DNA from: Pelistega sp.
GTDB lineage: Bacteria > Pseudomonadota > Gammaproteobacteria > Burkholderiales > Burkholderiaceae_B
Direction: 5' to 3'
DNA: 60,940 nt
Assembly: GCA_030538255.1 (NCBI GenBank)
Contig: JAUNUI010000020.1
Span: 1-60,940 of the forward strand
Shown piece by piece: positions 567 through 60,249 of the stretch. The notes under the pieces were generated by a model, which had not been told where the DNA came from, made no database searches, and worked only from the letters and a program-made list of their open reading frames with translations. Position 1 is the first letter of the stretch. Each line of letters begins with the position of its first letter. The position numbers were made by a program, and so were the translations under genes.

Positions 567-680
567 TATTTACTGATGAAACTATCTTCGCTGTCAGTGA
601 GGGCGCTTGTCAAAGTAAATGCTTAATACTCCGAGTATTTACTGATGAGACTATCTTCGCCATCAGTGAGGACGCTTGTC
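567..680 (-). repeat. Echo of the glpD 3' end (two copies, 69-bp period)
   Basis: Bases 567-611 and 636-680 are about 45-bp imperfect direct repeats. The right copy holds the real end of glpD (codons for DKRPH and TGA). The left copy, just downstream of the gene, again reads Asp-Lys-Arg-Pro-His-stop with a silent CGT/CGC difference. Each copy can fold through an ACTGA/TCAGT-type stem. It is one of several gene-end duplications in this window. Confidence 0.85.
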
Positions 681-2168
681 CAAATAATGGGCAAGTTGTT
701 CAGTTTGCTGAGTATCAAATAAGAGACCTAAGCGAGTGCGACGCCACAAAATATCATCCGTGGTTTGTGCCCACTCTTGTTCGATAAGCCAGTTAACTTC
801 GCTAGCATATAAGTCATGGCCGAAGTTAGTGCCCATTTCCTCAATATTAGCGGATAAGAAGGCATTAGCTAAGTTTCCATAGGCCTTAGCGTAGCGCAGG
901 GCGAGGGCAGGGCTTAGCCAACCGTATTGCTGAATTAGCTGTTGGGCATAAGCATCAGGCGAATCAATCGCGCCACCAGGTAAGCGTTGTGTGCTAGTCC
1001 AGCCTTTAGATTTGCCAGTAAAAGGCGCAAGTTTCTCTAAGGCATGTTCAGCTAAACGTCGGTAGGTGGTGATTTTACCGCCATAAATAGAGAGTAAAAC
1101 CGGTTGTTGCCCATTGCCACCACTCAAGTCAAAGACATAATCTCGGGTCACCGCTGAGGCAGTGCCTGTATTGTCATTGTATAAGGGGCGTACACCAGAC
1201 CAGCTAGACACCATATCCGCTCTACTGAGTGGCTGATCAAAATAGGCATTGATTAAACTGAGCAGATAATCAATTTCTTCATCACTAATCGCCACTTGTG
1301 CGGGGTCACCTGTGTAATCGACATCAGTTGTGCCAATCATGGCAAAGTTATCACGATAAGGCGTGGCAAAGACAATGCGATTGTCTTTGTTCTGCAGAAT
1401 ATAAGCATGATCGCCAGGATAAAATTTCGGCACAACAATATGACTGCCTTTGACAAGGCGTAATTTATTACCGTGCTCAGGCTTATGCAGATAGTCTTCA
1501 ATTTGAGCAACCCAAGGCCCAGCGGCATTGACTAGGATCTTGGCTTGGATAACTTGACTTGCGCCGCTAGCTTGTTCAATGCGCACACTCCAGAGTTTGC
1601 CATCATGATTAATTTCGCTGCAGCGAGATCGTGTGAGGATAGTCGCACCTAGCTGACTGGCGCTCATCGCATTCAGAATCACTAAGCGAGAGTCATCGAC
1701 TTGGCAATCAGAGTAGATAAAGCCCTTGGTAAACTGTGGTTTAAGCGCTTGGCCATAGTTATTGTCACGCTCTAATTTAATCGCTTGTGAACCAGGCAGG
1801 CGGTCTGAACGCTTGGCCAGATGGTCATACAAAAATAGACCACAACGAATCATCCAAGCAGGGCGTAAATGAGGCTCGTGTGGTAGAACAAAGCGTAAGG
1901 GTTGGACTAGATGCGGTGCAATATTTAAGAGCGTCTCACGCTCAGAAAGTGCTTCACGAACCAGACGAAACTCATAGTGTTCAAGGTAGCGTAGTCCACC
2001 ATGGATCAGTTTGCTACTGGCTGAAGATGTGGCACTGGCGAGGTCATTCTGCTCGCATACTAGGACGCGTAAACCTCGACCAGCAGCATCGCGTGCGATG
2101 CCAACTCCGTTAATGCCACCCCCTATGATACAGAGGTCATAAGGGGCGGATACATGCTCAGACGCCAT
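663..2168 (-). CDS. glpD: Aerobic glycerol-3-phosphate dehydrogenase
   Basis: This is the FAD-dependent, membrane-associated enzyme that oxidises sn-glycerol-3-phosphate to dihydroxyacetone phosphate and feeds electrons to the quinone pool. At 501 residues it matches the usual GlpD length. The FAD dinucleotide-binding motif CIIGGGINGVGIA lies at about residues 13-25, followed by the family signature SSKLIHGGLRYLEHYEF. The ATG start follows the marR-like gene by 14 bases, so the two are probably cotranscribed. No glpK or glpF lies nearby. The 3' end is duplicated immediately downstream. Confidence 0.95.
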   Translation of the reverse strand: MASEHVSAPYDLCIIGGGINGVGIARDAAGRGLRVLVCEQNDLASATSSASSKLIHGGLRYLEHYEFRLVREALSERETLLNIAPHLVQPLRFVLPHEPHLRPAWMIRCGLFLYDHLAKRSDRLPGSQAIKLERDNNYGQALKPQFTKGFIYSDCQVDDSRLVILNAMSASQLGATILTRSRCSEINHDGKLWSVRIEQASGASQVIQAKILVNAAGPWVAQIEDYLHKPEHGNKLRLVKGSHIVVPKFYPGDHAYILQNKDNRIVFATPYRDNFAMIGTTDVDYTGDPAQVAISDEEIDYLLSLINAYFDQPLSRADMVSSWSGVRPLYNDNTGTASAVTRDYVFDLSGGNGQQPVLLSIYGGKITTYRRLAEHALEKLAPFTGKSKGWTSTQRLPGGAIDSPDAYAQQLIQQYGWLSPALALRYAKAYGNLANAFLSANIEEMGTNFGHDLYASEVNWLIEQEWAQTTDDILWRRTRLGLLFDTQQTEQLAHYLDKRPH

Positions 2169-2182
2169 AGAAAATCCGATAA

Positions 2183-2668
2183 TTATTCAGCAGGAGTTTC
2201 GGTTTGGGTAATAATAGCTGATTTGAAATCGGCTAATGATTTTTGGAGCTTTTTCGAGTTGGCTTCAGAAAACTTAGCAAAGCTATCACTGAGGCATTTG
2301 TCATAGGCTTTAACCATTTTAGTTAATAGTTTTTTGCCTTTAGGTGTCAGACGAATGAATGTGCTGCGACGATCTTCACGGTTTAAAATACGCTCAATTA
2401 AGTCTTCACGCTCTAATTGCATAGTGATGGTAGTGATATTACCGTTACTCACCATCAAGCGGTCAGATAGTTCACCCATACGTAAGCCCTGAGGGGCGTT
2501 AGTTAATTGAGCCATAAGCTCGTAGCGTGGTAGTGTTGTCTGAAATTGAGAACGTAACACATTACGTAATTCATTTTGAATTAAATTATTGCAAGCGTTA
2601 AGACGTAGCCATAATTTTAGTTCTTCAGAAGAACTCTCATTTACACGGGTTTCTGTATCAAAGGACAT
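2183..2668 (-). CDS. MarR-family transcriptional regulator
   Basis: The 161-residue protein has the MarR winged helix-turn-helix layout: recognition region GELSDRLMVSNGNITTITMQ at about residues 80-100 and the wing NREDRRSTFIRLTPKG at about 117-132. Such proteins are dimeric, usually ligand-responsive repressors. A GGAG ribosome site precedes the ATG. Because it sits directly upstream of glpD in the same direction, control of glpD or autoregulation is likely, but the ligand is unknown. Most characterised glpD genes are instead controlled by the DeoR-type GlpR. Confidence 0.85.
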   Translation of the reverse strand: MSFDTETRVNESSSEELKLWLRLNACNNLIQNELRNVLRSQFQTTLPRYELMAQLTNAPQGLRMGELSDRLMVSNGNITTITMQLEREDLIERILNREDRRSTFIRLTPKGKKLLTKMVKAYDKCLSDSFAKFSEANSKKLQKSLADFKSAIITQTETPAE

Positions 2669-3050
2669 AGTTGCTCCAGATGGAATTCGTTACTAATTAA
2701 AAAGCAATACAATTTAAAGTATGCAGTATATAACTTAATATTATAAACTTAAAAATCGCATCTTCATATGGTATTAAGCGAGTTTTAGGCAGTCTCTTAA
2801 CTATTATTTATGATTTAAAGCAAATGGACTAAAATATAAAAAAAGCTTAATGCACTGAAATTTCAAGAAATCTTGTATAAAACCACGACACTAGCACTCA
2901 AATACACAGAGTTGAAACAAGCCAAGCTAGAAATTAAATGATTTACTAAAACCTTAGTTTGTTGCATTTTATAGACAGTAAAAGAGTAAAATACCCTCAA
3001 TATTTTAATTGGACTTGGAGTTAATCTGAGTTTTTAGCGTAGGAATTAAG
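2669..3050. promoter_or_regulatory. AT-rich divergent promoter region (marR-glpD / ribBA)
   Basis: This 382-bp spacer separates two divergent transcription units and must hold both promoters. A possible ribBA promoter is TTGCAT (2962-2967) with TAAAAT (2987-2992), but the spacing of 19 bp is long. I see no FMN riboswitch signature ahead of ribBA and no open frame of interest. Confidence 0.4.
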
Positions 3051-4199
3051 ATGATACTAACAGAAAATAGAGCAGATGATGTAATCTTTGATCATAAAAT
3101 TTCATCTATTGCAGAAATTGTTGAAGACTTAAAAAATGGCAAGATGGTCATTTTAGTCGATGAGGAAGATCGTGAGAACGAAGGTGACCTCGTGATGGCA
3201 GCGGATTTTATCACACCTGAAGCAATTAATTTTATGGTTACTCATGCGCGAGGTTTAGTCTGTTTAACCTTAACTACCGAACGATGCGAACAGTTAGGCC
3301 TAGAAATGATGGCTACGCGTAATGGCTCGAGTTTTGGCACGAATTTTACCGTGTCTATTGAGGCGGCAGAGGGCGTGACGACTGGTATTTCTGCAGCGGA
3401 TCGTGCGCACACGATTAAAGTGGCGGTTGACCCCAATTCCACCACGATGGATCTCGTGAGCCCAGGTCATATTTTCCCTGTGCGTGCAGTACCAGGTGGT
3501 GTATTGATCCGTGCAGGTCATACTGAAGCAGGTTGTGACCTAACACAAATGGCTGGCCTTCATCCTGCTTCGGTCATCTGTGAAATCCTTAAACCCGATG
3601 GCACCATGGCTCGCTTACCTGATTTAGTTGAATTTGCTAAAGAGCATAACTTGAAGATTGGTACGATTGCCGATCTTATTGAGTATCGTAGTGAGCATGA
3701 ATCGATGGTGGTGCGCTTAAGTGAACGTCATCTGAATACGCCATGGGGTGAATTCCGTGCAGTATCTTATATTGATAAAGCCTCGGGTGCGCCGCACATT
3801 GCCTTAGTGCATGGTGAGATCGACGCTGAACAAGAAGCCCTAGTGCGTGTGCATGAGCCTGTTTCAGTATTGGACTTCCTTGATACGGATAATGCTTGCC
3901 ACAGCTGGCCAGTGGATAAAGCCTTGAAAGCCATCAAACAAAGTGCAGCAGGCGTTATGGTTTTCTTGAATGCGCAAGGCGTTGAGGAGCAGTTGATTAG
4001 TAATCTTAAAAAATGGAATGCGGAGCAAGAAACTGAGAAGCGCACTCCCGACCGTTACGGCTTACGCACCTATGGTGTGGGCGCGCAGATTCTACGTGAT
4101 TTGAATGTAGGTAAGATGCGCTTACTTTCATTGCCTCGTAAGATGCCGAATATGGCGGGGTACTCCTTGACTGTGACAGGTTTTGAGTCAGATAATTAA
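3051..4199 (+). CDS. ribBA: 3,4-dihydroxy-2-butanone-4-phosphate synthase with degenerate GTP cyclohydrolase II domain
   Basis: Residues about 12-212 form the RibB domain, which converts ribulose-5-phosphate to dihydroxybutanone phosphate and formate for riboflavin synthesis. It has the acidic motif DEEDRENEGDLVMAADF, then GHIFPVRA and GHTEAGCDL. Residues about 215-382 resemble RibA and keep YGVGAQILRDLNVGKMRLL. They lack the zinc-binding cysteine triad and the RQEGRGIGL-type motif, so GTP cyclohydrolase II activity is unlikely. This state is known from other proteobacterial RibB proteins; a separate ribA would be needed elsewhere. An AGGA site precedes the ATG. ribH and nusB follow. Confidence 0.93.
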   Translation: MILTENRADDVIFDHKISSIAEIVEDLKNGKMVILVDEEDRENEGDLVMAADFITPEAINFMVTHARGLVCLTLTTERCEQLGLEMMATRNGSSFGTNFTVSIEAAEGVTTGISAADRAHTIKVAVDPNSTTMDLVSPGHIFPVRAVPGGVLIRAGHTEAGCDLTQMAGLHPASVICEILKPDGTMARLPDLVEFAKEHNLKIGTIADLIEYRSEHESMVVRLSERHLNTPWGEFRAVSYIDKASGAPHIALVHGEIDAEQEALVRVHEPVSVLDFLDTDNACHSWPVDKALKAIKQSAAGVMVFLNAQGVEEQLISNLKKWNAEQETEKRTPDRYGLRTYGVGAQILRDLNVGKMRLLSLPRKMPNMAGYSLTVTGFESDN

Positions 4200-4288
4200 T
4201 TGCTTGGCTTTATGGGTAGTGAGAGATTTGAGTCAGATAATTAATCGCTTGGCTTTATGAAGAGTGAGTGGTTTTGAGTCAGAAAAAT
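4182..4288 (+). repeat. Echo of the ribBA 3' end (three copies, 45-46 bp period)
   Basis: TTTGAGTCAGATAATTAAT, which encodes the last ribBA residues FESDN and the stop, starts at 4182 and again at 4227. A shortened third copy (TTTGAGTCAGA) starts at 4273. Copies one and two share a further GCTTGGCTTTATG. The duplicated unit therefore begins inside the gene and extends past its stop. Confidence 0.9.
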
Positions 4289-4415
4289 ATCTCTCACCTT
4301 TTCTTGAATTGACACAATTGGAGTTGGTGTTTCGCTGTACAATAGGCGCAGTTACTGTGAGCGTTGATTTATGTGCTCATACTCCAATTTAGTAAACTAC
4401 CTTAAAGGAATTTAA

Positions 4416-4952: not shown

Positions 4953-4964
4953 TTAGGATATATA

Positions 4965-5420: not shown

Positions 5421-5430
5421 GTAGTAGCTC

Positions 5431-5603: not shown

Positions 5604-6617
5604 ATGGCGGGTGAGTTTGATCTTATCAAACAGTATTTTTCACGCACCTCTGGTGAGCAGACTAAGGCCAAGCAAGCATCAGGTGTTTTGTTAGGCGTGG
5701 CTGATGATTGCGCGATTTTCCAGCAAACGCCAGGCAGCCAAATTGCCACGAGTATAGACTTATTAATTGAGGGTCGACATTTCTTTAGTGATGTTGACCC
5801 TTATGCTTTAGGACATAAAGCGCTTGCTGTGAATTTATCGGACTTGGCGGCTATGGGTGCTAAACCGATTGGCTGCTTATTAGGCCTGGCCTTACCTCGA
5901 GTAGACCAAGCCTGGCTAAGCGCATTTTCCTCTGGCTTTTACGCGCTCTCTGATGCCTATGCCTGTCCTCTGATTGGCGGTGATACAACGCGCAGTGAGC
6001 AGGGGATTTGTATCAGTGTCACGGTATTTGGCGAAGTTCGTGCTCCCTTTTTACAAAGAAATCGGGCCCAAGTCGGTGATGATATCTGGGTTAGTGGGCA
6101 CTTGGGTGCCGCGCATACTGCTTTAAGGCTATTAAGTAAGCAGGCAGCAGCTAATGTATTGAGTGATGCTGAGGCAACGCTTCTCGCTATAACACGGGAT
6201 GCTTTAGAGCGTCCGAACCCGCGAATCGCCTTAGGCCAGGCCTTACATCAGGTAGCGCATGCGGCCTTAGATATTTCTGATGGCTTAGCACAAGACTTAA
6301 GTCATATCCTTAAGCAAAGTCATGTTGCCGCGATTATTGAAGAAGAGCGACTACCTGTTGCTGAGGCGTTACTTGAACAATCGCTCGCAGAGCGGCGGGA
6401 TGCTGTCTTAGGCGGTGGGGATGTATATGAGTTGTGCTTTACGGCGGCACCCAATCAGAGAACTCGGATTCTGGCGATTAGTGCGGAACTTAATTTGCCA
6501 CTCACACGCATTGGCCACGTGACCCCAGCAGACAGTCAAACTTCATTACTTCAAGTGCGTGATAGTTTTGATCAAACAGTTGATTATTTTTACGCCGGCT
6601 TTGATCATTTCAGTTAA
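5604..6617 (+). CDS. thiL: Thiamine-monophosphate kinase
   Basis: ThiL phosphorylates thiamine monophosphate to the active cofactor thiamine diphosphate. The protein shows the ThiL/PurM-like order: GEFDLIKQYF at the start, ADDCAIF, SIDLLIEGRHF, LAVNLSDLAAMGAKP and GGDTTRSE, all involved in Mg-ATP and substrate binding. An upstream TTG at 5586 would add six residues, but the ATG at 5604 has an AGAGG site at a good distance and gives the usual N-terminus, for 337 residues. pgpA follows after 31 bases. Confidence 0.94.
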   Translation: MAGEFDLIKQYFSRTSGEQTKAKQASGVLLGVADDCAIFQQTPGSQIATSIDLLIEGRHFFSDVDPYALGHKALAVNLSDLAAMGAKPIGCLLGLALPRVDQAWLSAFSSGFYALSDAYACPLIGGDTTRSEQGICISVTVFGEVRAPFLQRNRAQVGDDIWVSGHLGAAHTALRLLSKQAAANVLSDAEATLLAITRDALERPNPRIALGQALHQVAHAALDISDGLAQDLSHILKQSHVAAIIEEERLPVAEALLEQSLAERRDAVLGGGDVYELCFTAAPNQRTRILAISAELNLPLTRIGHVTPADSQTSLLQVRDSFDQTVDYFYAGFDHFS

Positions 6618-9524: not shown

Positions 9525-11180
<1,656 letters not shown>

Positions 11181-18474: not shown

Positions 18475-18590
18475 GTGTAAGCTCAAACCGTTGATAGGCA
18501 ATTGCTGAATAAGACTGATGCGATAAGGTCAATGATTTTGCGTCAGCTAGTCATAAGTGAGCGATGATTGATAAGTCAAGGCGATCAATA

Positions 18591-18654
18591 TTTAAGCCTA
18601 TGATCTCAAAGATTCGGCTAAATTTAAGCCTATAAAGTCAAAGATTCGGCTAAA
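18591..18654. repeat. Two 32-bp tandem repeats downstream of livF
   Basis: Bases 18591-18622 and 18623-18654 both read TTTAAGCCTAT, then a variable stretch, then TCAAAGATTCGGCTAAA. They lie in the convergent spacer between livF and the membrane protein gene at 18756. No hairpin or coding potential is evident. Confidence 0.85.
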
Positions 18655-18755
18655 TCTAGTGATAAGCGAATTGTAATCAAGGTCATTATCCCTCTACAGC
18701 CGTCAATCATCATTGCGTGCAAACATTGGTATTTACAAGGGGTACAGTGCTAAGA

Positions 18756-19352: not shown

Positions 19353-19724
19353 AGAAACACCTAGACAGAAAATTCATATCAATATTCTGCGATAAAAAAA
19401 ATATCTTGTCCAACGAATTATGCGCAAGAGTATGGTGCAGATTGGACTGGGCTGGTGATGAGCTAATGCGATGGAGTGGCGTGGACAGGATTGAGTGGCG
19501 TGGATTGGTGGTGTGGATTGAGTTGAGGGATTATATGTGTAGGACTGGATAGTTGATAATTAGTACAATTTCCTGACTGCCCCTGGGATTATATGTGTAA
19601 GGCTTGAACGGAGGTGATTATGCGAATGGGATTTGAGGCCTAGCACAAGGGTTGCCTGCTGATGATTCAATTTCGAGGTAGTTTCGGTGGAAGGGAACTT
19701 AAGGCCTAGCGCAGGAAGCAAGCA
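19353..19724. repeat. Repeat-rich non-coding spacer
   Basis: No gene is supported. The stretch is built of degraded repeats: GGATTG/GGAGTGGCGTGGA units at about 19440-19525; GGGATTATATGTGTA at 19527 and 19585 (58-bp period); and GGCCTAGCRCARG at 19637 and 19703 (66-bp period). Between the terminator and the amino-acid binding protein gene (19771-19841), GTTAAGCTA/TATATAAGGCTAGAT and CTTAACGA units repeat as well. Confidence 0.7.
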
Positions 19725-40465: not shown

Positions 40466-40870
40466 AGAAATAGTCTTAAACTGAAATACATGCGACTTGA
40501 TTAATAGGAATAAGTATTCATTAATACTAGCATTGAATCCTCAGTAATGGTGAAAAAGGGAGTGCAATTGTATGCTCATTTTGCTTACTTACAGGCGGAC
40601 GCATATGAAACGAGCTTTGTACATAGACGAATGGCTCACTTAGTTAGCTCGTAGGGGTTAGATATGAAGCGAGATTTGCATATAGATGAAAGACCGACTT
40701 AGTTTGCTTACAGGAGCTAGCGCTCAAGAATGCGAAGATGAAGTGTTTAAAGACCCTACTGGGCGCATATATAATCCGTTATACTAAGAGGGTTCAGGTT
40801 TGCTCTTCTCCATAACGTTAAGAGGCCGTTAGGTAATAGAGTTAAATCGTATCTACAGGAGAAAGTTGTA
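40466..40870. other. Spacer with imperfect 59-bp tandem repeat, upstream of pcuAC
   Basis: This 405-bp divergent spacer has no gene. ATATGAARCGAGMTTTGYA-type units begin at 40603 and 40662 (about 43 bp each, period 59), and GCTTACTTACAGG / GCTTACAGG occurs before and after them. Promoters for tctD and for the copper chaperone gene must lie outside the repeat. Confidence 0.65.
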
Positions 40871-49945: not shown

Positions 49946-50785
49946 ATGCTAGATCGCGAAGGTTACCGTCCTAATGTTGGTATTATCCTTGTAAATCACA
50001 AGAATGAGGTATTTTGGGGCAAAAGAATCCGAGAAAAATCATGGCAATTCCCACAAGGTGGCATTAAATATGGTGAGAGCCCTGCTCAAGCCATGTTTCG
50101 TGAATTGCATGAGGAACTCGGTTTAAAACCTGAACATGTACAAATATTAGGGCGAACGCGAGAATGGTTACGTTATAACGTGCCAGAACATTTTGTGCGA
50201 CGAGAGTCGCGAGGTCATTATAAGGGTCAGAAACAAATTTGGTTCCTATTACGTTTGGTTGGCAAGGACAAAGACCTTAGCCTACGCGCCACTATGCATC
50301 CTGAGTTTGATGCATGGCGTTGGAGTACGTACTGGGTTCCACTCGAGCAAGTAATTGAGTTTAAGCGCGGTGTCTATACACAGGCTTTGCGTGAATTGTC
50401 CGCATTATTAAAGCAACCCAAGGCAGAAACTCGCTTTTTGCGTCAGCGTAAGAACAAGCGACGTGGTACCGTTCAAGAGTCTGATTCTGAGGGCTCTGTG
50501 ATGCTATTTGAGGCAGAGTCAGTCCAACCGTCTGAGGCTGTTGTTCAACAAGCAGACAATGCTAAGGGTGTGACGAACGCAATGGGGAAAAAGCCATCGG
50601 ACAAATTGCCAGTGCATGGGCAGACTACGGATAAGTCTCAGCGTGTTTCGGGCAAAAAGATGGCGACTCATAGTACACAGCAGATTAAGTTTACACACCA
50701 AGAAATTCGTGTCGGCAATATGATTCAAGTTGAAACGAAAGTTGTGGTTGAGCAAGAGTATCAGCGTAAACCCGAAGAGCAATAA
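49946..50785 (+). CDS. rppH: RNA pyrophosphohydrolase with long C-terminal extension
   Basis: RppH removes pyrophosphate from 5' triphosphate mRNA, which starts RNase E decay. The Nudix domain fills residues 1-160: [20 protein letters not shown], and the Nudix box from [20 protein letters not shown] into LGL. The usual length is about 160-190 residues; this protein has 279. Residues about 165-279 are polar and Lys/Gln/Glu/Val-rich with no recognisable domain. The start ATG follows a GGGGCGG-like site. The gene's last codons are duplicated 70 bp downstream. Confidence 0.93.
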
Positions 50786-50841
50786 AGCTGCTTAAGGTAG
50801 ATACACCATAAGCGCCCAAGAGCAAGGGTATTAGCGTAAAT
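50750..50841 (+). repeat. Echo of the rppH 3' end (70-bp period)
   Basis: GAGCAAGAGTATCAGCGTAA, inside rppH at 50750, recurs as GAGCAAGGGTATTAGCGTAA at 50820, past the stop. Over about 21 bases there are two differences, both transitions. The echo is read through a TAG and does not encode an intact tail. Confidence 0.85.
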
Positions 50842-50937: not shown

Positions 50938-52317
50938 GTGGATATGCAAAACTCACCAACCATTGCGGCGATTGCAACGGCACCAGGACGTGGTGGCGTT
51001 GGGGTAGTGCGTCTTTCAGGTAAGAATCTCTTGAGTTTGGCGCAAACCTTAAGCGGTGGCAAAACACCCAAGCCCAGAATCGCCTTGTATACCGACTTTT
51101 TGAACGAACAAGGGCAGCCGATTGATAATGGCTTGATGTTGTACTTTGCTGCGCCTGCGAGTTTTACCGGTGAGGATGTGATTGAACTTCAAGGACATGG
51201 CGGCCCTGTTGTCATGAATATGTTGCTGCAGCGTTGTTTGGCTTTAGGGGCACGCTTGGCCGAGCCTGGCGAGTTTACTAAGCGCGCTTTTTTAAATAAT
51301 AAATTAGACTTAGCGCAAGCTGAAAGTGTTGTCGACTTAATCGATGCCAGCAGTCAGTCTGCTGCACGCATGGCTTTGCGCAGCTTGAAAGGCCAGTTCT
51401 CTGATTTGATTCATGAGCTCGTAGAGCAACTGATTAATTTACGTATGCTAGTTGAGGCTACACTTGATTTTCCAGAAGAAGAAATTGATTTTCTGGAAGC
51501 GGCGGACGCCCGTGGCAAACTCGTGAATGTGCGTAAGAAATTAGAGGCTGTGCTTGCACAGGCAACCCAAGGCGCAATCCTGCGTGAGGGTATGAACGTG
51601 GTTCTCGTGGGAGCGCCGAATGTCGGTAAGTCCTCCTTACTCAATGCTTTGGCGGGTGATGAGGTGGCGATTGTCACGGATATTGCTGGCACCACACGTG
51701 ATACGGTGCGTGAACAAATTACCTTGGATGGTGTGCCGGTACATATTATCGACACGGCAGGTTTACGTGATACCGATGATGTGGTGGAGAAAATAGGTAT
51801 TGAGCGCAGCCATAAGGCCTTGCAAGACGCGGATGTTGCCCTAGTTTTGATTGATCCACGCGAAGGCTTGAACGAGAAGACACGGGCCATCCTCGAAAGC
51901 ATTCCAGTTGAACTTAAAAAAATTGAAATCCATAATAAGATTGACTTATTAGAAGGCGAACCCGAGGTATTGCGTGATGAACAAGCATTAGCATTCAGTG
52001 CATCAGGAGCGCCTGTATTGATTCGCTTGTCCGCGAAGAAATCTTTAGGTTTAGATTTATTAAAGCAAGAACTATTAAGTCGTGTGGGTTGGCAGGGTGA
52101 GAGCGAAGGCTTGTTCTTGGCCAGGACCCGTCACTTATTAGCGCTGCAAGAAGCACAGACAGAGTTAGAGAATGCAGCGGTCAATGGTTACCACAATATT
52201 GAGTTGTTGGCTGAGCACCTACGCTTAGCTCAGATGGCCTTGAATGAAATTACCGGCGAGTTCAGCGCGGATGACCTGCTTGGGGTTATCTTTAGTCGCT
52301 TCTGTATTGGTAAGTGA
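50938..52317 (+). CDS. mnmE: tRNA modification GTPase MnmE (TrmE)
   Basis: MnmE works with MnmG to modify U34 of several tRNAs (5-carboxymethylaminomethyl side chain). The 459-residue protein has the folate-binding N-terminal domain ([21 protein letters not shown]), a helical domain, the GTPase with [14 protein letters not shown] and DIAGTTRD, and the C-terminal FCIGK motif with the essential Cys. I use the GTG at 50938 because of the distance to AAGGAAG; the ATG at 50944 is also possible. Confidence 0.96.
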
Positions 52318-52366
52318 TTCTGTATTGGTAAGTGATTCTGCAGTAGTAATTCTGTATTGGCAGTGA
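52300..52366 (+). repeat. Echo of the mnmE 3' end (18-bp unit, 2 exact plus 2 partial copies)
   Basis: TTCTGTATTGGTAAGTGA, encoding Phe-Cys-Ile-Gly-Lys-stop, lies at 52300-52317 and again exactly at 52318-52335. Shorter relatives follow at 52336-52349 and 52350-52366. The unit is precisely the catalytic CIGK tail with the stop codon, repeated in tandem. Confidence 0.95.
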
Positions 52367-52399
52367 GTCAGGCAATCATACGATAGGCAAGAATAACTT

Positions 52400-52433
52400 A
52401 AGGCGGCTTATTTGTGAAGGCCGCCTTGTTTTT
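52400..52433 (+). terminator. Intrinsic terminator of mnmE
   Basis: AAGGCGGC (52400-52407) and GCCGCCTT (52420-52427) form a perfect GC-rich stem followed by GTTTTTC. Confidence 0.9.
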
Positions 52434-52494
52434 CATTATGACGTGTAGTGCTATGTGCTGTTTGTGCCGAGTCAAGATGGCTGAGCGAAATGCG

Positions 52495-53403
52495 TTACGC
52501 CTTTTTCAATAAAGTAATTAAGCTTGAGGTGTCCATGCGGTTATTGCCATTGGCTTGAATTTGCGCATAGAAACTATCCACCAATTCTGTCACTGGCAAC
52601 TTAGCACCATTGCGCTTAGCTTCATCAAAGACTAGGCCTAAATCTTTACGCATCCAATCAACAGCAAAACCGAAATCAAATTTATTTTGCAGCATGGTGG
52701 GACCGCGATTCTCCATCTGCCAGCTTTGCGCCGCGCCTTTGCTCACTACTTCTAAAACTTGCTTCATATCTAAACCAGTTCGCTCGCCAAAAGCCATTGC
52801 TTCAGCTAGGCCTTGAACTAGGCCAGCGATACAAATTTGGTTGACCATCTTACATAACTGACCACTGCCATGAGGGCCAAGCAGAACAACAGAGCGGGCG
52901 AAGGTGTCGATAACGGGTTTCACGCGTTTGAATGCAGACTCTTCACCGCCACACATAACCGTGAGTACCCCATTAATTGCTCCTGCTTGTCCACCTGAAA
53001 CCGGTGCATCGATAAACTGTAAACCACGTGCTTGCGCTTGAGCGGCGACTTCTTTGGCCACTTCAGCTGAGGTTGTTGTGTGATCGACAAAAATAGCACC
53101 AGCCTTCATGCCATGAAAAGCACCATTGTCGCCATAGGTGACTTCGCGTAAAGAGTCATCATTACCGACACAAGCGAAGACAATATCAACCCCTTGGGCG
53201 GCAAGGCTAGGGTTAATCGCTGAGCGACCACCGAATTCCTCCACCCATGCTTGCGCTTTAGCAGGGTTACGATTATAGACAGTAACTTCATGCCCAGCAC
53301 GTTGCAGATGGCCAGCCATAGGGTAACCCATGGCGCCTAAGCCAAGAAATGCAACTTTCAACGGAGCAGTCGCAGCATAAGTTTTTTGAGCAATTGATGA
53401 CAT
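52495..53403 (-). CDS. NAD(P)-dependent beta-hydroxyacid dehydrogenase (GarR/MmsB-like)
   Basis: The 302-residue enzyme belongs to the 3-hydroxyisobutyrate / tartronate semialdehyde reductase family. It has the Rossmann motif FLGLGAMGYPMAGHL at about residues 19-33, the substrate motif DAPVSGGQAGA at about 132-142, and the catalytic Lys185 in GQLCKMVNQ. The ATG at 53403 follows AAGGA; the TTG upstream is less likely. The exact substrate is not evident. It is convergent with mnmE. Confidence 0.9.
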   Translation of the reverse strand: MSSIAQKTYAATAPLKVAFLGLGAMGYPMAGHLQRAGHEVTVYNRNPAKAQAWVEEFGGRSAINPSLAAQGVDIVFACVGNDDSLREVTYGDNGAFHGMKAGAIFVDHTTTSAEVAKEVAAQAQARGLQFIDAPVSGGQAGAINGVLTVMCGGEESAFKRVKPVIDTFARSVVLLGPHGSGQLCKMVNQICIAGLVQGLAEAMAFGERTGLDMKQVLEVVSKGAAQSWQMENRGPTMLQNKFDFGFAVDWMRKDLGLVFDEAKRNGAKLPVTELVDSFYAQIQANGNNRMDTSSLITLLKKA

Positions 53404-53561
53404 CGTATTTACATCCTTCAAGAGTATTTGTCCGAATCAGGACATGAGATTTTGTTTCATGGCAAAACCAAGGTAAAATCAGCCCATGAGTTTATCTAAA
53501 TCTGAGCCTTATGTAAGATTTAGCCATAAACATTTTTCATCAAATTTAACACATTACTGAT

Positions 53562-53975
53562 ATGTTGCAAGAACTTGATCAAGTCGCTGTCCGTGTAGGG
53601 CAGGTTGTAGAGCTCAGCCGCCAATTGCTAACTGAGCGTAGCGCCTTAATGAAGCGCCTGGAAAGTGCTGAAGAAATTGGTGTTAATTTGCGTCAACAAT
53701 TAAGCCAGAGTGAGACTCAGGTCTCAGAGCTTAATCAGCGTATTACTGCGCTTGATAGCGAAATGACCCAGAATACAGCGCAAGTTGAAGAACAGAATGC
53801 ACGTTTGCAAGAGGAAGTGAGTTCAATGAGTCAAGAGATTACTCAATTGAAAGCTCAACTTGCTCAATCGCAGGCTGATGTACAGCAGTGGCGCCAAAGT
53901 GCACAAGTGGTGCGTGAACGAGTGGCCCATGTTTTAGAAAATTTACCAGGCTCAAGTGCACAAGGAGAGGCGTAA
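53562..53975 (+). CDS. Coiled-coil protein upstream of zapA (ZapB/TIGR02449-like)
   Basis: The 137-residue protein is nearly all coiled coil: heptad-like runs from about residue 8 to 115 rich in Gln, Glu, Ser and Leu (RVGQVVELSRQLLTERSALM, then SQEITQLKAQLAQSQ). No enzyme motif is present. Small coiled-coil genes directly ahead of zapA are common in proteobacteria and are thought to act in cell division like ZapB. Its TAA overlaps the zapA ATG (TAATG), so the two are coupled. Confidence 0.8.
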   Translation: MLQELDQVAVRVGQVVELSRQLLTERSALMKRLESAEEIGVNLRQQLSQSETQVSELNQRITALDSEMTQNTAQVEEQNARLQEEVSSMSQEITQLKAQLAQSQADVQQWRQSAQVVRERVAHVLENLPGSSAQGEA

Positions 53976-54283
53976 TGGATCGTATTGATGTCAATATTCT
54001 TGATCGCAAATTAACCCTTGGTGTTGAAGAGGGTGGTCGCGATAAGATTCTTGCTGGGGTGGCTCATGCCGACCAATTGATGAAAAATATTAAATCTTCA
54101 TCAGCTAATCTTAGCGTTGAGCGAGTGGCGATTATGGCCAGTATCTATCTTGCTGCTGAGTTGTTAAGCATGGAATCAGGTGAGGGGCCTTTTAAGGGGC
54201 TTCAACTAGGTGATGTGCAGAATAAACTCAATGAAATAAATAGTTTGCTTGACCGTGGTATTAATGAGCTTAAAGCGGTTTAA
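53975..54283 (+). CDS. zapA: Cell division protein ZapA
   Basis: ZapA binds and bundles FtsZ at midcell. The 102-residue protein starts MDRIDVNILDRKLTLGVEEG, where family members read 'vdv.IlGr.y.l.c', and continues with an amphipathic helix (VERVAIMASIYLAAELLSME). It is coupled to the coiled-coil gene upstream. The 6S RNA gene follows after 54 bases, the classical zapA-ssrS order. Confidence 0.92.
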   Translation: MDRIDVNILDRKLTLGVEEGGRDKILAGVAHADQLMKNIKSSSANLSVERVAIMASIYLAAELLSMESGEGPFKGLQLGDVQNKLNEINSLLDRGINELKAV

Positions 54284-54290
54284 ATAAGGT

Positions 54291-54318
54291 TTTCAGATAG
54301 TGCTTTTTGTGCTATCAT
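54291..54318 (+). promoter_or_regulatory. Promoter of the 6S RNA gene
   Basis: TTTCAG (54291-54296) and TATCAT (54313-54318) are 16 bp apart and lie about 20 bases upstream of the first 6S stem. Both boxes are moderate matches. Confidence 0.6.
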
Positions 54319-54337
54319 GAGTCTAACGAATTTAGAG

Positions 54338-54523
54338 TTTTGCCCTGCTGTATTTGTGACGTGGTCATACATCTCTTACCTATGATTAATGGCACAGGCA
54401 GTCGGATTACGTGGTGGGCGTGATTGTCTTAACTGACGAACCCGAAGCTACATTGATGGCTGCCAAATTTTGAACTTTAGGGTTCGAGGTGCCGACCTTG
54501 ACGGTACGTTGCGGGGCAATTTA
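54338..54523 (+). ncRNA. ssrS: 6S RNA
   Basis: 6S RNA mimics an open promoter and sequesters sigma-70 RNA polymerase in stationary phase. The stretch has the conserved betaproteobacterial blocks: TTTTGCCCTGCTGTATTTGT at the 5' side, ACCCGAAGCT, GATGGCTGCCA, TTGAACTTTAGGGTTCGAGG, and GACCTTGACGG then TTGCGGGGCAA at the 3' side. TTGCCC near the start pairs with GGGCAA near the end to close the long rod. It sits just after zapA. The exact 5' end is estimated. Confidence 0.95.
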
Positions 54524-54528
54524 TTAGA

Positions 54529-54560
54529 AAGCGAGTTCACATGAGTGGACTCGCTTTTTT
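54529..54560 (+). terminator. Intrinsic terminator after 6S RNA
   Basis: AAAGCGAGTTCAC and GTGGACTCGCTTT form a long stem with loop ATGA, ending in TTTTTT. There is one G-U pair. Confidence 0.92.
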
Positions 54561-54904
54561 CATGTCTATTTCAGGCACGCTGCTATAGATATCGTTGTAC
54601 AGTTAGGCCATTGCGGTATGTGTATATTGCCGACTAGGGTCGAGCTGTCTATGCACGCCACTATCTATGCGCGCTGCTACCTGTGTCCTGTTCGTTAGAT
54701 CGCTGTTGTATATGTACATTACCGACTCGGTGGCGCTGACTCTGTGCGTTGCAATCTACGCTCGTTGCTATCATACGCTCTGCTCCGATAAGGCCGCATT
54801 TCTCTTAACGAAAATTAAGCATTCCATTTACACAAAGAAACACTCATTAAGCGGTTTCAGCGTTATGATTAATGCATCATTATTCTTCTTGATAGAGGGT
54901 ATTT
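54561..54904. repeat. Repeat-rich spacer between 6S RNA and the SIMPL gene
   Basis: No gene is supported. GTATRTGTAYATTRCCGACT occurs at about 54616 and 54708 (92-bp period), and CTATGCRCGC-type units repeat every 16-20 bases at about 54650-54680. The base composition is uneven, with many CG and TATG steps. The promoter of the SIMPL-domain gene should lie in the right, AT-rich part. Confidence 0.6.
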
Positions 54905-55639
54905 ATGCAACACATTTCTAAAAAATTAAGTTTAGCTTTATTAGTCAGCTCAGTCTGTTTTGGGGCGGCTTGGGCGCAAGCAAATCCTGCTGCACCCAAT
55001 CAGTCAATGGCAACCGTAGGAGAGGGTCGTATGTTGGTGAATATTAGTGCTGACGTGCAAGAGGATGTTGATGCGGATGTGGTGAGTATTACCTTAAGCA
55101 AGCAGCTTGAAGGACAAGACCAGAAAGCGCTGTCTGATGAACTGAATCAAGCCATTAATAAAGTCATTGAGATGGCGAAAAGTGATTCGGCCTTAACGGT
55201 AAAGACAGGTAATTATTCATTCTGGAGTAATACAGAGAAAGATAAAAGCTCGTGGATTGTACGAGGCGAAGTCTTCGTGACTAGCAGTGACTTTGAGAAA
55301 GTGCGTGGTCTTATCTCTCAGGTATCAGGCACGATGAACTTAGATGGGATTAACTTTAGCCTATCTGATGCGAAGCGCAAAGAAAGTGAAGCGCGCTTAA
55401 TTGCTAAGGCAGCGGATGCGTTTCGTGAACGTGCTAGTAGTGTGGCGAGCGCATTCGCCGCAAAAGACTACACGATTAAGCGTGTAAATTTACAGACGAA
55501 TCGCGTGATTGGTAATGGTGATGTGGTGTACAGAGCCGCCAAGGGTTTATCTTCCTATAGTGGCGGTGAATCCGTACAGTTATCTAGCGGTAAGGTGAGC
55601 GTTCAGGTTACGACGGAAGGCGAGATCGCTTTGCACTAA
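54905..55639 (+). CDS. Periplasmic SIMPL (DUF541) domain protein
   Basis: The 244-residue protein has a signal peptide of about 25 residues ending AWAQA and a SIMPL domain: [41 protein letters not shown], and [23 protein letters not shown] typical of the family. Related proteins are linked to oxidative stress resistance or outer-membrane assembly, but no defined biochemical role is known to me. GAGGG precedes the ATG. Its end overlaps the convergent lgt by 32 bases. Confidence 0.88.
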
Positions 55640-56396
55640 TGATATAAAGCACAATGCCGGCAATAATCATGGGCAGTGATAACCACTGTCCCATGCTGAA
55701 TCCCATCGACAAGAGACCTAAGTAACCATCAGGCTCGCGAGCATATTCGGCAATAAAGCGGAAAAAACCGTAGCCAATTAGGAATACCGCACTTACCTGT
55801 CCTACAGGGCGCTTTTTACTCGAAAAAACCCACAAAATAATAAATAGCAATAAGCCTTCAAGCGCCATCTGATACAGTTGCGAAGGGTGGCGCGCCAAGT
55901 TATCCACGTGTGGAAACACCATGCCCCAAGATGAGTCGGTTGGGCGGCCCCAGAGCTCACCATTAATAAAGTTACCTAAGCGGCCAAAGGCTAGACCTAG
56001 CGGCACTAAGGGCGCACCAAAATCGGAAATTTGGAAAAAAGTTTTCTTCTCTTTGTGGCCAAACCAGAGCATTGCTAAGAGCACACCGAGTAGACCGCCA
56101 TGGAAAGACATGCCACCATCCCAGACCGAAAGAATTTGCATAGGGTTGCTGAGGTAGTAGCTCGGTTGATAAAAGAGCACATAACCGATTCGACCGCCTA
56201 AGATAACCCCTAAAATACAGTAGAACAATAAGTCTTCAAAGCGTTGTACCGTAATGTCAAAAAGCCCCTTCTTAATACGATAGCGTCCGAGCAGCCAAGC
56301 GAAGAAGAAAGCCAATAAATACATCAGACCGTACCAGTGCACTTTGATAGGGCCAAGCGCGATGGCGACGGGATCAATTTGAGGGAAGGTCATCAT
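55608..56396 (-). CDS. lgt: Prolipoprotein diacylglyceryl transferase
   Basis: Lgt transfers diacylglycerol from phosphatidylglycerol to the lipobox Cys of prolipoproteins such as Pal and the small lipoprotein of this window. The 262-residue membrane protein has [16 protein letters not shown] at the start, the catalytic-region motif [27 protein letters not shown] and the signature [17 protein letters not shown]. It has seven or so membrane segments. Confidence 0.96.
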
Positions 56397-56561
56397 AGGT
56401 CGTCTATTTTCGCCCCAGCTTGGACGCTGAAGCTTGAGTGCTTAAAAACTAGTAGTGTATAGTAGATGGGCTAACTTATGTATCGCTTAATGTGATTTAG
56501 CGCGTATCTTGCAGTCGATAGTCGTTACAATTAATTTTTGTCCACCCGTTTACTAGCCATT

Positions 56562-56942
56562 ATGAGAATGTTGCGCGGTCGCTTTTTTCCTGCTCTATTG
56601 CTTTGTGTATCCGCTTCGGTGGGTGTAGCACATGCGGGTGAGGTGGCGCACGATATTAACCCACCCGAAGAAATCAGCGTACTGCCCTTACTCAAAGAGA
56701 AAGTCTGTATGAGCTGTCACTTAATGGATAAGAAGCGCGTTGGTCCTTCATTGCTGATGATTGCCGAGCGTTATGCCGAGCAGGGTGAAGACTTTATACC
56801 CGTACTTGCTGAGCGTATTATTACTGGGGGAAAAGGGCATTGGGGACCCTTGGTGATGCCGGCACAAAACAAAGTCAGCCAAGAAGAAGCGCAGATGATG
56901 GCGCGTTGGATACTCTCATTGGAGCCAAAACTACACCGTTAA
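56562..56942 (+). CDS. Small periplasmic cytochrome c
   Basis: The 126-residue protein (from ATG 56562; a TTG at 56538 and an ATG at 56568 are alternatives, none with a strong ribosome site) has a signal peptide ending AHAGE, the haem motif Cys49-Met-Ser-Cys52-His53 and a probable axial Met99 in GPLVMPAQN. It is a monohaem class I cytochrome, similar to cytochrome c551/c552-type electron carriers. Its end overlaps the convergent PAP2-like gene by 12 bases. Confidence 0.88.
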   Translation: MRMLRGRFFPALLLCVSASVGVAHAGEVAHDINPPEEISVLPLLKEKVCMSCHLMDKKRVGPSLLMIAERYAEQGEDFIPVLAERIITGGKGHWGPLVMPAQNKVSQEEAQMMARWILSLEPKLHR

Positions 56943-57530
56943 TAACTGGTACAACACACCAGCGACACCACCAGCAAGTAAGCCCACGATAATATCAGCT
57001 ATGACATGCCGTCCTAAGCTTAAGCGAGACCAAATCAGCAATCCTGTCATCAGGATACCTAGAATCAGGGCTAGTGTATTAGGCCACATCAAAGCGGTGG
57101 CAAAAATTGCAAATGCCGTATGAAGCGATAACTTCACCCATTTACTCAGTAATAAAGCAATCAAAAAAAGAGCACCAGATAGACCTAAGGCAATGGACAT
57201 ATGTGGCCGATCAGTTAAAACCCATATGACCGTTGCACTCAGTAAGCACAGTATGGCAAGAAAGACATTCAGCGATCGGCGCTCACTTTGTGCGCTAGCA
57301 TCAATATGCGACCATCGACCAGAGCGAACTTGCAGATAACTATAGGCCATAGAGACTAGACCAAGCGCAGCGACAATAAGGACAATAATTTTAAGCTGTT
57401 GCATAGAGGCACCTTTCTGCATGGCTGCAACGATCGCAGCGATTGACAAAAAAACCAGAGGATGTCCAATAATCGAAGCCGCACGTGCAATCGTCGTGCG
57501 AATAGGCTGAGTGTTGGGTTCGGAGTCCAT
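56931..57530 (-). CDS. PAP2-like membrane protein
   Basis: The 199-residue protein has six hydrophobic segments. Its C-terminal half resembles the PAP2 acid phosphatase fold: SLHTAFAIFATALMWP where the PSGH box usually lies (the His is kept, Pro-Ser-Gly is not), and WSRLSLGRHVIADIIVG matching the SRx5HxxxD box. The first box (KxxxxxxRP) is not obvious, only TDRPHMS. It may be a lipid phosphatase or an inactive relative. Confidence 0.75.
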   Translation of the reverse strand: MDSEPNTQPIRTTIARAASIIGHPLVFLSIAAIVAAMQKGASMQQLKIIVLIVAALGLVSMAYSYLQVRSGRWSHIDASAQSERRSLNVFLAILCLLSATVIWVLTDRPHMSIALGLSGALFLIALLLSKWVKLSLHTAFAIFATALMWPNTLALILGILMTGLLIWSRLSLGRHVIADIIVGLLAGGVAGVLYQLLTV

Positions 57531-58050
57531 ATGTCATTTGATATGCTTGGTGGCGGTTGTGTTCAGAGAGCTTCATTCTTGTGCGGCTTGAGCGCCTCAA
57601 TCTTTGGCTGCTCTCTAAAGCGGTGTAGAAGTGTTGTACAGCTTCATCAGTATAACGATACTCAGCTTAAAAGTGGACATTCATTACTACGAAAGTGTAT
57701 GCTTGTTTCACAGGAAAATTTTTGCTTGAATTGGGGTGGATTTAAGGGCAAGACTAATAATTGCTCAAGTTCACCCTCTAAATTATCCCTCAGTAGCACT
57801 AGCAGTAAGTTTGCCTAAGAATTGCAAGGCATGAAAAGTATCGAACGGGTTAATATGGATAAAGTGCTTTTTGTATAAAATGAACGAGATCTTCTTGTAT
57901 GAAAGGGACTAAGCTTATGGACAAGGAACTAACGCTGCTTGTTGCAGATAAAACCACGCCCCTTATATGAGATAGGTAAGTGAATCGCTTGGGCTCGTCT
58001 TACAATAAGGCTATTAATCAATTGCCTTAAAATCGCAAGGAATGAAAATT
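57531..58050. other. Non-coding spacer upstream of the AhpD-like gene
   Basis: This 520-bp spacer shows no convincing gene. A plus-strand frame to 57818 begins inside the PAP2-like gene on the other strand and has low-complexity, Ser- and Cys-rich translation. A 23-codon frame (57899-57970) has no motif. I see no tRNA or conserved RNA. Confidence 0.4.
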
Positions 58051-58500: not shown

Positions 58501-58647
58501 TGTATTAAGATATTGAGTCAGCAAGCACTGGCTAGATACGTCTTATCTAGTGCAGTTATATGATATTAATATATTGCTTGATGATTAAAATAATTAGCAT
58601 CATTAAGAGCGTTATAGTTGAATATAGGTGGTTTTGGAGTTTAAACA

Positions 58648-59175: not shown

Positions 59176-59372
59176 GGCACAATCGATGAATAATTGGGGC
59201 TCTGCCTTCTTTAAAGCACGAGCCCATTGTTTAATTGTTTCGCCAAAACCTTTTTCATTATTGCTGACACTGTGGTGAGTGAATCCTTAAACGATAATGC
59301 CGTTTAGGTAAGTCTCTTATTCTTAGTAAAAACAAGTTGCTAGAGGTACGGTCTCCACCATGACTTAACGTG

Positions 59373-59470
59373 GGCCTTTAATTAAATAGTAAAGAAATGG
59401 GGAGGCTCTTCCGTATCCACCTCAGGTGTCTTAAGGTAGGCCTTTATTTAATTAAGCAGTAAGGAAATGG
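59373..59470 (-). repeat. Echo of the lysE-like gene 3' end (about 66-70 bp apart)
   Basis: GGCCTTTAATTAAATAGTAA at 59373 and GGCCTTTATTTAATTAAGCA at 59439 begin two related 28-32 bp blocks, both ending GAAATGG. On the minus strand the right copy is the real gene end (Ile-Ser-Leu-Leu-Leu-Asn-stop). The left copy, downstream, still reads Ile-Ser-Leu-Leu-Phe-Asn-stop. Confidence 0.85.
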
Positions 59471-60056
59471 CAATTGAGAACATGACAATAAAGATTAAAA
59501 AGTCGAGGATCTGCCATGAGCGTGGTTTCTTGAAAAAAGGCTGTAGTAAACGGGCACCATAGCCCAGCGAAAAGAAAAAGACCGCAGAAGCGAGAGCGGC
59601 ACCTATAAAGAAAGCAAGCCCCTGCCCAGGATATTTTGTTGATACCGAGCCAATTAATAATAAGGTGTCGAGATAGACATGTGGATTGAGCCAGGTAAGC
59701 GCTAAAGTAATCAGAAGTGTTTTCTTAAGGCTTTTCCCAGGGCTAGCTTCTGGACTCGCTTGTAAACTCGCGCCGCCGCGTAGAGCACTGCGCAAATGCA
59801 TAAAACCATAGGTGAATAAAAAAGCCGCGCCGGCATAGCGAATGATATCTAATAATATAGGCGACTGATTTAAGACGAGACTAAAACCCGAAACACCAAT
59901 ACCAATGAGGGTGGCATCAGAAATAGCACAAGTCAGGCATACCCAGAAGACATGCTCTTCTTTAAGACCTTGGCGCAGCACGAAGGCGTTCTGTGAGCCA
60001 ATTGCGAGAATTAGGGAAAAAGAAAGTAAAAAACCAGAGAAAAAAGCGGTAGACAT
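59448..60056 (-). CDS. LysE/ArgO-family amino-acid exporter
   Basis: The inner-membrane exporter has the family start LSFSLILAIGSQNAFVLRQGL and TWLNPHVYLDTLLLIGSV, matching the lysine/arginine exporter branch (LysE, ArgO). It has six membrane segments. The ATG at 60056 gives 202 residues, the usual length; the longer frame to 60176 adds a 40-residue polar N-terminus. The substrate is inferred from family only. No lysG/argP regulator is next to it here. Confidence 0.88.
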   Translation of the reverse strand: MSTAFFSGFLLSFSLILAIGSQNAFVLRQGLKEEHVFWVCLTCAISDATLIGIGVSGFSLVLNQSPILLDIIRYAGAAFLFTYGFMHLRSALRGGASLQASPEASPGKSLKKTLLITLALTWLNPHVYLDTLLLIGSVSTKYPGQGLAFFIGAALASAVFFFSLGYGARLLQPFFKKPRSWQILDFLIFIVMFSIAISLLLN

Positions 60057-60161
60057 ATACGTAGGTAAGTGAAGACTTAGTGAATTGTTATTTTGTAAGT
60101 AAATATGCTTAGGTGATTGAGTGTATAGCATCTTAGTGAAATTAGCTAAGGCATATTCAGT

Positions 60162-60249
60162 AATATCTGTATGCATAAGGAATAGGAGTCACTCGGGCAG
60201 GGCAATTCACGTTAATGATCGCAATATCGGTATGCATGAAGAATAGGAG
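60162..60249 (-). repeat. Direct repeat upstream of the lysE-like gene (61-bp period)
   Basis: AATATCTGTATGCATAAGGA at 60162 and AATATCGGTATGCATGAAGA at 60223 begin 27-bp blocks ending AATAGGAG, with three differences. They lie 106-193 bases ahead of the gene start, in its promoter region, and contain the palindrome ATGCAT. Confidence 0.85.

Follow-up and report, generated by a model that had tools for sequence, protein, structure and literature searches.

The window, 60,940 nt of Pelistega sp. DNA on contig JAUNUI010000020.1, carries glpD, ribBA, livM, livG, livF, a NUDIX domain gene, mnmE and lysE, and at each of these genes or their junctions a short stretch of sequence recurs nearby in the same orientation (Table 1). 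We refer to such pairs as echoes, each consisting of two arms separated by an offset, d. A sequence-only reading had listed gene-end echoes at glpD, ribBA, livM/livG, livG/livF, rppH, mnmE and lysE. Those of glpD, ribBA, livG/livF, mnmE and lysE score above the shuffle null and livM/livG is weaker, but the rppH stop codon is not copied: in this NUDIX domain gene (49946-50785; rppH is the name given in that reading), the copied piece stops 12 nt upstream of the stop codon, which lies outside the arm. An echo also suggested for the esterase at 12352 reduces to a 9-nt match with a score below 8, which is not significant. The glpD echo is absent from all four same-genus orthologues examined, and the mnmE echo from all six. 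Both liv junctions contain a mini-ORF that terminates at the copied stop (16872-16949, 25 codons, between livM and livG; 17688-17759, 23 codons, between livG and livF). Mini-ORFs lie between genes at four operon junctions, three of them computed and the fourth, in locus L022, read by eye; at locus L013 the mini-ORF terminates 13 nt before the copied stop. These mini-ORFs are the only hint of selection at operon junctions.

Table 1. Echoes and related repeats in the window (contig JAUNUI010000020.1; d, offset)
Feature	Position	Strand	Description
glpD end echo	558-618 + 627-687	-	61 bp, 84%, d=69; glpD stop 663-665
ribBA end echo	4182..4289	+	45-bp tandem (4182-4226, 4227-4271), 2.2 copies, partial third copy to 4289
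livM/livG junction echo	16847-16880 + 16921-16954	+	34 bp, 74%, d=74; core score 12
livG/livF junction echo	17675-17697 + 17748-17770	+	23 bp, 100%, d=73; 50 bp between without similarity
Intergenic tandem duplication	18590..18658	.	unit 32 bp; missed by the sequence-only reading
Intergenic spaced echo	19527..19620	.	36 bp at 75%, d=58
Intergenic echo	40603..40708	.	47 bp at 79%, d=59
rppH (NUDIX) echo	50750-50770 (in gene) + 50820-50840 (downstream)	+	21 bp, 90%, d=70
mnmE end echo	52300..52340	+	18-bp tandem, 2.3 copies, FCIGK-stop repeated
lysE end echo	59377-59400 + 59447-59470	-	24 bp, 88%, d=70; lengthened by gapped alignment
lysE start echo	60162-60188 + 60223-60249	-	27 bp, 89%, d=61

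The claim that such copies exceed chance was borne out. A score of 14, the threshold used for all non-coding echo counts, was reached at 58 of 1042 real genes and at none of 1037 genes with a shuffled 3′ flank, and a score of 11 at 86 of 1042 versus 3 of 1037. Local direct repeats, coding sequence included, numbered 146 in the first 535-kb sample of the genome versus 3 in dinucleotide shuffles, and the two controls together rule out a chance origin. In the window, 5 of the 59 called genes reach score 14. Genes were called with a simple purpose-written finder, whose starts are less reliable than its stops. Matches no more than 100 bp from the end of a stretch, or touching masked bases, were removed before counting; the masked sequence comprised two CRISPR arrays that inflated the second sample and the 700 bp opening one contig piece of the third. 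CRISPR arrays were left unmasked in relatives and named loci, and RNA genes were treated as non-coding in all sets.

Across four samples of this genome we counted 247 non-coding echoes in 247 kb, or about 1 per kb (92, 66 and 74 in samples 1-3, making 232 in 226 kb, to which sample 4 added 15 in 20.9 kb). Five same-genus genomes yielded 15 in 78.5 kb, with densities of 0.14 to 0.41 per kb in what were small samples; ten genomes from the family or order gave 7 in 50 kb, 80 named loci, mostly from Pseudomonas, gave 16 in 202 kb, and deeper sampling of one relative (G006) gave 2 in 16 kb. Echo density here is therefore several times that of the sampled relatives. With GlpD identities of 72-78%, relatives in the genus are too distant for base-by-base intergenic comparison. 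Spaced inverted repeats are not enriched, with 2 in 102 kb of non-coding DNA in the first 535-kb sample versus 12 in 78 kb from the genus samples. A distinctive duplication mode, one of the causes considered in the sequence-only reading, is supported by a density about 5 times that of five same-genus genomes, by two offset classes and by the restriction to direct copies. Substitutions between copies comprise 669 transitions and 509 transversions, an ordinary ratio. We found no paper describing the pattern in the literature searched, in which few subscription journals were represented.

The framing of these repeats as belonging to gene boundaries was not confirmed. A stop-centred scan of 44% of the genome found an echo at 58 of 1042 stops (5.6%), at 33 of 684 positions at +60 and 33 of 683 at +100 (4.8%), and at none of 699 positions at -400, inside genes. 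Repeats no more frequent at gene ends than elsewhere were the outcome that the sequence-only reading had itself named as contrary to its proposal, and 3′ flanks indeed carry the same repeats at about equal density. Coverage by echo arms likewise stays level over the 150 nt that follow the stop: of 1060 genes, 52 are covered at the stop itself and 50-69 at the positions after it, as counted before masking of the 700 bp of CRISPR sequence in sample 3. On this flat coverage and a stop rate close to the downstream rates, gene-end targeting was dropped; stop codons are not clearly favoured compared with other 3′-flank positions.

The original proposal, under which gene ends attract echoes or selection favours an extra stop or junction, we accordingly regard as very improbable. 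The four junction mini-ORFs speak for it, as do 52 stop-spanning echoes versus about 31 expected if echoes fell uniformly over intergenic DNA (25 versus 10.3, 10 versus 10.5 and 17 versus 10.5), a cruder model than the comparison of stops with 3′ flanks. The second of these, a held-out sample, shows no excess, and we ascribe the excess under the uniform model to a shortage of echoes close to starts. A selected second stop would also be unneeded, since an intact stop precedes the copied one. Echoes are scarce both near start codons and inside genes, and 55 of the 57 in-gene offsets are divisible by 3 (24/25, 6/6, 20/21 and 5/5).

This regard for reading frame bears on whether echoes are an assembly or sequencing artefact, to which we assign almost no probability. 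The source assembly is a draft in 47 contigs, but assembly error would respect neither frame nor the rarity of echoes near starts and inside genes, and the copies carry many substitutions (median identity 0.78-0.88 depending on offset band).

Echoes fall into two classes. The first consists of contiguous tandem copies at offsets of 15-50 bp, with a median unit coverage of 0.96 at offsets of 15-30 and 0.89 at 30-50; the second consists of partial copies at offsets of 58-80 bp, separated by a median of 22 bp that do not align. Coverage of 90% or more of the unit is seen in 64% of 78 echoes at offsets of 15-30, in 47% of 55 at 30-50 and in 8% of 75 at 58-80. Offsets in the second class peak at 60/61 and 66, the latter being the commonest single offset. 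The long spacing stressed in the sequence-only reading is thus real, but it is one of two modes. Half-unit periodicity as the source of the 58-80 bp offsets was rejected (0.411 versus 0.402), and large-scale uptake of gene pieces by intergenic DNA was not supported (5 regions with a best match of 20-60 bp at E<1e-3 versus 2 in the reversed control). Hairpins are slightly enriched in the spacers (p=0.048).

Spaced echoes might instead descend from ancient tandem duplications, about 66 bp long, that have since lost their similarity in the middle. Gapped alignment extends several pairs, for example both lysE pairs and one at 9687 on contig C2, and by eye a pair at about 39673 on contig C23 runs on past an indel. 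Nonetheless, the unaligned gap keeps its 22-bp median, nearly complete coverage stays at the 8% given above, the sequence between and alongside the arms differs even in pairs whose arms are identical, and chance alone lengthens a planted 24-nt arm to 35 on average. We consider this origin unlikely.

The arm lengths of spaced echoes raised another alternative, in which a subset would be off-target Cas1-Cas2 integrations: a native intergenic segment of about 28 or 36 bp would end up on both sides of an acquired spacer of about 32 or 30 bp. Among 138 spaced echoes collected at a lower threshold, arms of 27-29 are tied to offset 60/61 (8/21 versus 6/117, p=1.3e-4) and arms of 35-37 to offset 66 (7/21 versus 7/117, p=1.2e-3); the joint count of 15 was equalled in 0 of 5000 permutations. 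However, the geometry was noticed before it was tested, and a look-elsewhere control equalled the count of the best cell (9) in 2 of 60 permutations. The genome holds three cas1 loci, CRISPR arrays on contig C21 with periods of 61 and 60, which the 28/32 echoes at 60/61 fit, and a third array with a period of 67-73; yet it has no Cas9 above cut-off, even though 66 is the commonest offset, and type III geometry is not in excess (3/28 versus 12/110). A relative with Cas9 and a period-66 array (G006) offered none of the 36/30 shape among its 2 echoes in 16 kb, which speaks against a dependence on Cas1-Cas2, and another with a cas1 locus of period 66-68 (G002) had a single 27/33 echo (d=60) that mismatches its own array.

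The ten 36/30-like spacers are GC-rich (51%) and coding-like as genes are, while their arms are not, but against GC-matched controls they retain just a weak coding signal (Fisher 35.1, df 20), and the eleven of the 28/32-like group have none (Fisher 19.8, df 22). The 36/30 loci were rejected as missed genes, arms and whole echoes not being coding-like. Over 30 nt, a chromosomal gene is matched at 96.7% by a spacer in a three-copy array (contig C17, about 6392-6571); against this, one spacer searched against its own genome matched only itself, and two searched in phages and plasmids returned nothing convincing. Non-self matches at E 0.05 were found for 12 of 59 inserts with 32% of the genome searched, two of them strong and from elsewhere. 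Integration of spacers outside arrays under Cas1-Cas2 overexpression has been reported, according to a passage in PMC11788318 citing Nivala 2018. Off-target integration leaves the tandem class, and identical-arm pairs such as 23/50, unexplained, and we judge it improbable even for a subset. A reading of the 28/32 and 36/30 echoes as fossil neo-CRISPR sites is just as doubtful; it would make them dozens of one-off spacer scars, some just past stops, left by Cas1-Cas2 complexes, still present or since lost, that repeatedly inserted spacers into intergenic DNA.

We are instead highly confident that gene-end echoes are the scars of a lineage-specific, genome-wide process of local direct duplication that has been filtered by selection. 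Such a process would copy short stretches of DNA directly beside their source and in the same orientation. Copies past a stop, or those that restore the stop/start overlap of an operon, would survive because both proteins stay intact there, and most copies within genes or promoters would be purged. The copying itself may occur by replication slippage or template switching of displaced strand ends, which would go unchecked because exonuclease VII, a degrader of single-stranded ends, is apparently missing. Simple slippage does not predict the offset peaks at 60/61 and 66, and its expectation of contiguous copies mostly fails for the 58-80 class. Taken as a whole, the duplication process, the filter and the exonuclease VII mechanism form our best explanation, which we hold to be somewhat probable.

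Loss of exonuclease VII as the cause is a tentative, correlational candidate. The XseA profile (TIGR00237) has no match in this draft genome and was found in the other 6 of the 7 genus genomes; the link therefore comes from a single genome lacking a match. A search of half of the genome for the conserved surroundings of xseA returned nothing convincing, so that xseA may simply fall in an assembly gap. Matches to polA, recJ and mutS were obtained in all seven genus genomes, recJ and mutS being fragmented in one relative (G004), and a missing PolA, RecJ or MutS is not supported as the cause. Ku-based end joining is likewise unsupported, as Ku (PF02735) has no match in this genome, the only one searched for it. 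Exonuclease VII is listed among the major 3′-5′ exonucleases of E. coli in a passage of PMC5412681, and E. coli xseA mutants are said, in a statement in PMC4907049 citing Chase and Richardson 1977, to show increased recombination.

Overall, these data present a natural genome with a countable signature of short duplications and a candidate missing repair gene, set beside same-genus relatives that have xseA and, as far as sampled, no such signature. Echoes show operon junctions absorbing an insertion without breaking either gene, and illustrate how a strong filter, under which a copy is harmless only past a stop, can mimic targeting. The CRISPR-like subset, if true, would make off-target spacer acquisition a visible force in chromosome evolution.

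Several known systems invite comparison. As in the non-canonical CRISPR integration that PMC11788318 attributes to Nivala 2018, local sequence is doubled around an insert in the 28/32 and 36/30 pairs. Unlike those events as outlined there, echoes come in many lengths, no array found here matches their commonest offset and any dependence on cas is putative. MIRUs are described, in an account of Supply 1997 in PMC12548453, as mobile repetitive sequences at mycobacterial gene junctions, and in that account resemble echoes in placing a short ORF, with stop/start overlap coupling, ahead of the next gene; each echo locus differs in repeating its own local sequence. Nor do the arms make up a single dispersed family of homologous repeats: in a 935-kb sample, those of 16 of 59 spaced echoes had a non-self match at E 0.05, mostly weak or to the same array. 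Intergenic VNTR or minisatellite arrays are tandem, imperfect repeats; echoes resemble them in being tandem and imperfect, some with at least three copies, and differ in being mostly pairs scattered over many unrelated sites. In E. coli, short tandem duplications arising by slippage or template switching are reportedly limited by ExoI, ExoVII and RecJ, in work by Lovett and colleagues. Echoes resemble these duplications as direct copies beside their source, at 15-80 bp and mainly in non-coding DNA, in a genome where exonuclease VII was not found. Unlike them, echoes are fixed in the genome as a signature of about 1 per kb of non-coding sequence, and those of the spaced class enclose unaligned DNA and have offsets that peak at 60/61 and 66.

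Short direct local repeats ("echoes") are abundant in the Pelistega genome (G000), a 2.95-Mb draft assembly of 47 contigs, about half of which was surveyed, window included. A scan for local direct repeats at offsets of 15-150, coding DNA included, returned 146 in the first 535 kb versus 3 in shuffled DNA. With two CRISPR arrays masked, the non-coding DNA of four successive samples held 92 echoes in 102 kb, 66 in 62 kb, 74 in 62 kb and 15 in 21 kb at the scan threshold of score 14, or 247 in 247 kb. Comparison genomes gave 15 in 78.5 kb for five members of the genus, whose samples were small and uneven (0.14 to 0.41 echoes per kb), 2 in 16 kb for a deeper sample of one genus member, 7 in 50 kb for ten genomes of the family or order, and 16 in 202 kb for 80 named loci, mostly from Pseudomonas.

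The sequence-only reading had proposed that many window genes are followed by an imperfect copy of their own end, too often to be easily put down to chance. Sequence reading, the repeat scan and a stop-centred scan revealed strong copies at glpD, ribBA, livG/livF, mnmE and lysE, and a weaker one at livM/livG. Two further cases differ: at rppH the copied piece stops 12 nt short of the stop codon, and the esterase echo at 12352 had no score in the stop-centred scan, in which 5 of 59 called window genes reached score 14 at the stop. This score was attained by none of 1037 genes given a shuffled 3′ flank, in line with the argument against chance. The glpD echo is missing from all four same-genus orthologues and the mnmE echo from all six; judged from these sequences, both therefore probably arose within the present lineage.

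A clear preference for gene boundaries, in contrast, was not borne out. The stop-centred scan scored 58 of 1042 genes at stops, with no clear excess over control positions in genes of at least 700 bp (33/684 at +60 and 33/683 at +100; 0/699 at -400). Across samples 1-3 (44% of the genome), an echo arm covered the stop codon in 52 of 1060 genes and positions 10 to 150 nt past it in 50 to 69, dropping to 2-6 within genes, 100-300 nt upstream of the stop; on the start-codon side, coverage fell from 36 at 100 nt upstream to 5 at the start. Stop-spanning echoes did exceed a cruder uniform model in part (25 observed versus 10.3 expected, 10 versus 10.5, 17 versus 10.5), which we read as 5′-side depletion rather than attraction to stops. 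Of 57 in-gene repeats, 55 had an offset that was a multiple of three. Together, these in-frame offsets, the flat 3′ coverage and the depletion in genes and at starts indicate that the gene-end pattern is what remains where duplications are tolerated only if harmless. The original observation is real yet mis-framed, being a genome-wide duplication signature and no gene-boundary device.

Echo offsets are bimodal. Those of 15-50 are for the most part contiguous tandem copies; those of 58-80 ("spaced" echoes) are mainly partial copies with a median of 22 bp of unaligned DNA in between, and few of them extend over 90% or more of the unit (8% of 75). Identical arms may be widely separated, as at livG/livF (23 bp, 50 bp, 23 bp). 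Lowering the threshold revealed peaks at offsets 60 (n = 13), 61 (n = 11) and 66 (n = 24); 70 and 72 had 10 echoes apiece, and every other offset from 50 to 85 had between 0 and 8. Spaced inverted repeats were not enriched. Echo density and two-mode geometry are unusual enough to merit follow-up.

A subset of spaced echoes might derive from CRISPR-type spacer integration into ordinary DNA, an origin that we consider unlikely. Arms of 27-29 paired with offsets of 60/61, and arms of 35-37 with 66, at a joint count of 15 that no permutation of 5000 reached; however, the pattern was spotted before the test, and a look-elsewhere control matched the best cell in 2 of 60 permutations. Echoes of this shape are missing from a genus member that has both Cas9 and an array of period 66. 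The 36/30-like inserts (n = 10) were GC-rich and coding-like, but the coding signal became far less clear in comparison with GC-matched DNA; the 28/32-like inserts showed no such signal. G000 carries cas1 at three loci, one with an internal stop, and no Cas9 match above cut-off; judging by their repeat sequences, the two arrays on contig C21 are presumably of types I-E and I-F. These loci and other repeats are collected in the table.

Repeat features and CRISPR loci of G000 (C, contigs; hC and tC, contig samples; L, sequence stretches)
Feature	Location	Description
CRISPR array 1	C21 ~51000-57600	long; period 61, > 100 repeats
CRISPR array 2	C21 ~114400-120500 (arrays 1 and 2: samples hC21, tC21)	long; period 60
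cas1 match near array 1	C21:49763-50410	in-frame TAG
Third CRISPR locus, beside cas1	C33 ~57500-64000 (L238, L243)	37-bp repeats, period 67-73
Three-copy array	L021 (C17) 6370-6571	by eye; ~36-bp repeats, 30-31-bp spacers
Match of one L021 spacer	C21 ~78181-78210	30 nt, chromosomal gene
Echo insert	hC23 10317 (C23 ~30317)	between identical 24-bp arms; resembles piece of C7 gene (33 bp at 91%), presumably NAD kinase from a motif
~65-bp dispersed repeat	window 334-400, 41494-41557; also tC7, L024, tC23, hC7, tC8, L013	at least 8 copies, 87-100% identity, mostly intergenic; L013 copy overlaps called gene start
39-bp in-frame repeats	window 45796-46029	inside gene 45364-46506, presumably TolA-like from the operon
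80-bp identical stretches	L025 10689-10902	two, 134 bp apart; by eye, apparently duplicated tRNA genes

With genome-wide duplication as the preferred reading, the candidate missing repair gene is xseA, encoding exonuclease VII. Exonucleases of this kind reportedly keep tandem repeats stable and restrict template switching (Lovett and colleagues). PolA, RecJ and MutS had matches in 7 of 7 genus genomes, and Ku was not found in G000. XseA had a match in the other six genus genomes and none in G000. The xseA neighbourhood from three relatives had no convincing match in the searched half of G000, and a gap in the draft assembly is therefore a possible reason for the absence. A hyper-recombination phenotype is described for xseA mutants of Escherichia coli (PMC4907049), and exonuclease VII is counted among the major 3′-5′ exonucleases (PMC5412681).

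Echoes spanning both a stop and a start occurred in 3 of 530 tight same-strand gene pairs. In all three, a mini-ORF of 22-25 codons lies between the genes; it ends exactly at the copied stop in two and 13 nt before it in one. A fourth junction with a mini-ORF was seen by eye in stretch L022; four examples are not enough to argue firmly for selection at operon junctions. Although the echoes of G000 lack a common repeat family, these junction mini-ORFs resemble the start-coupled ORFs of MIRUs, which are described as inserting at start codons and thereby coupling their own ORF to the gene (PMC12548453).
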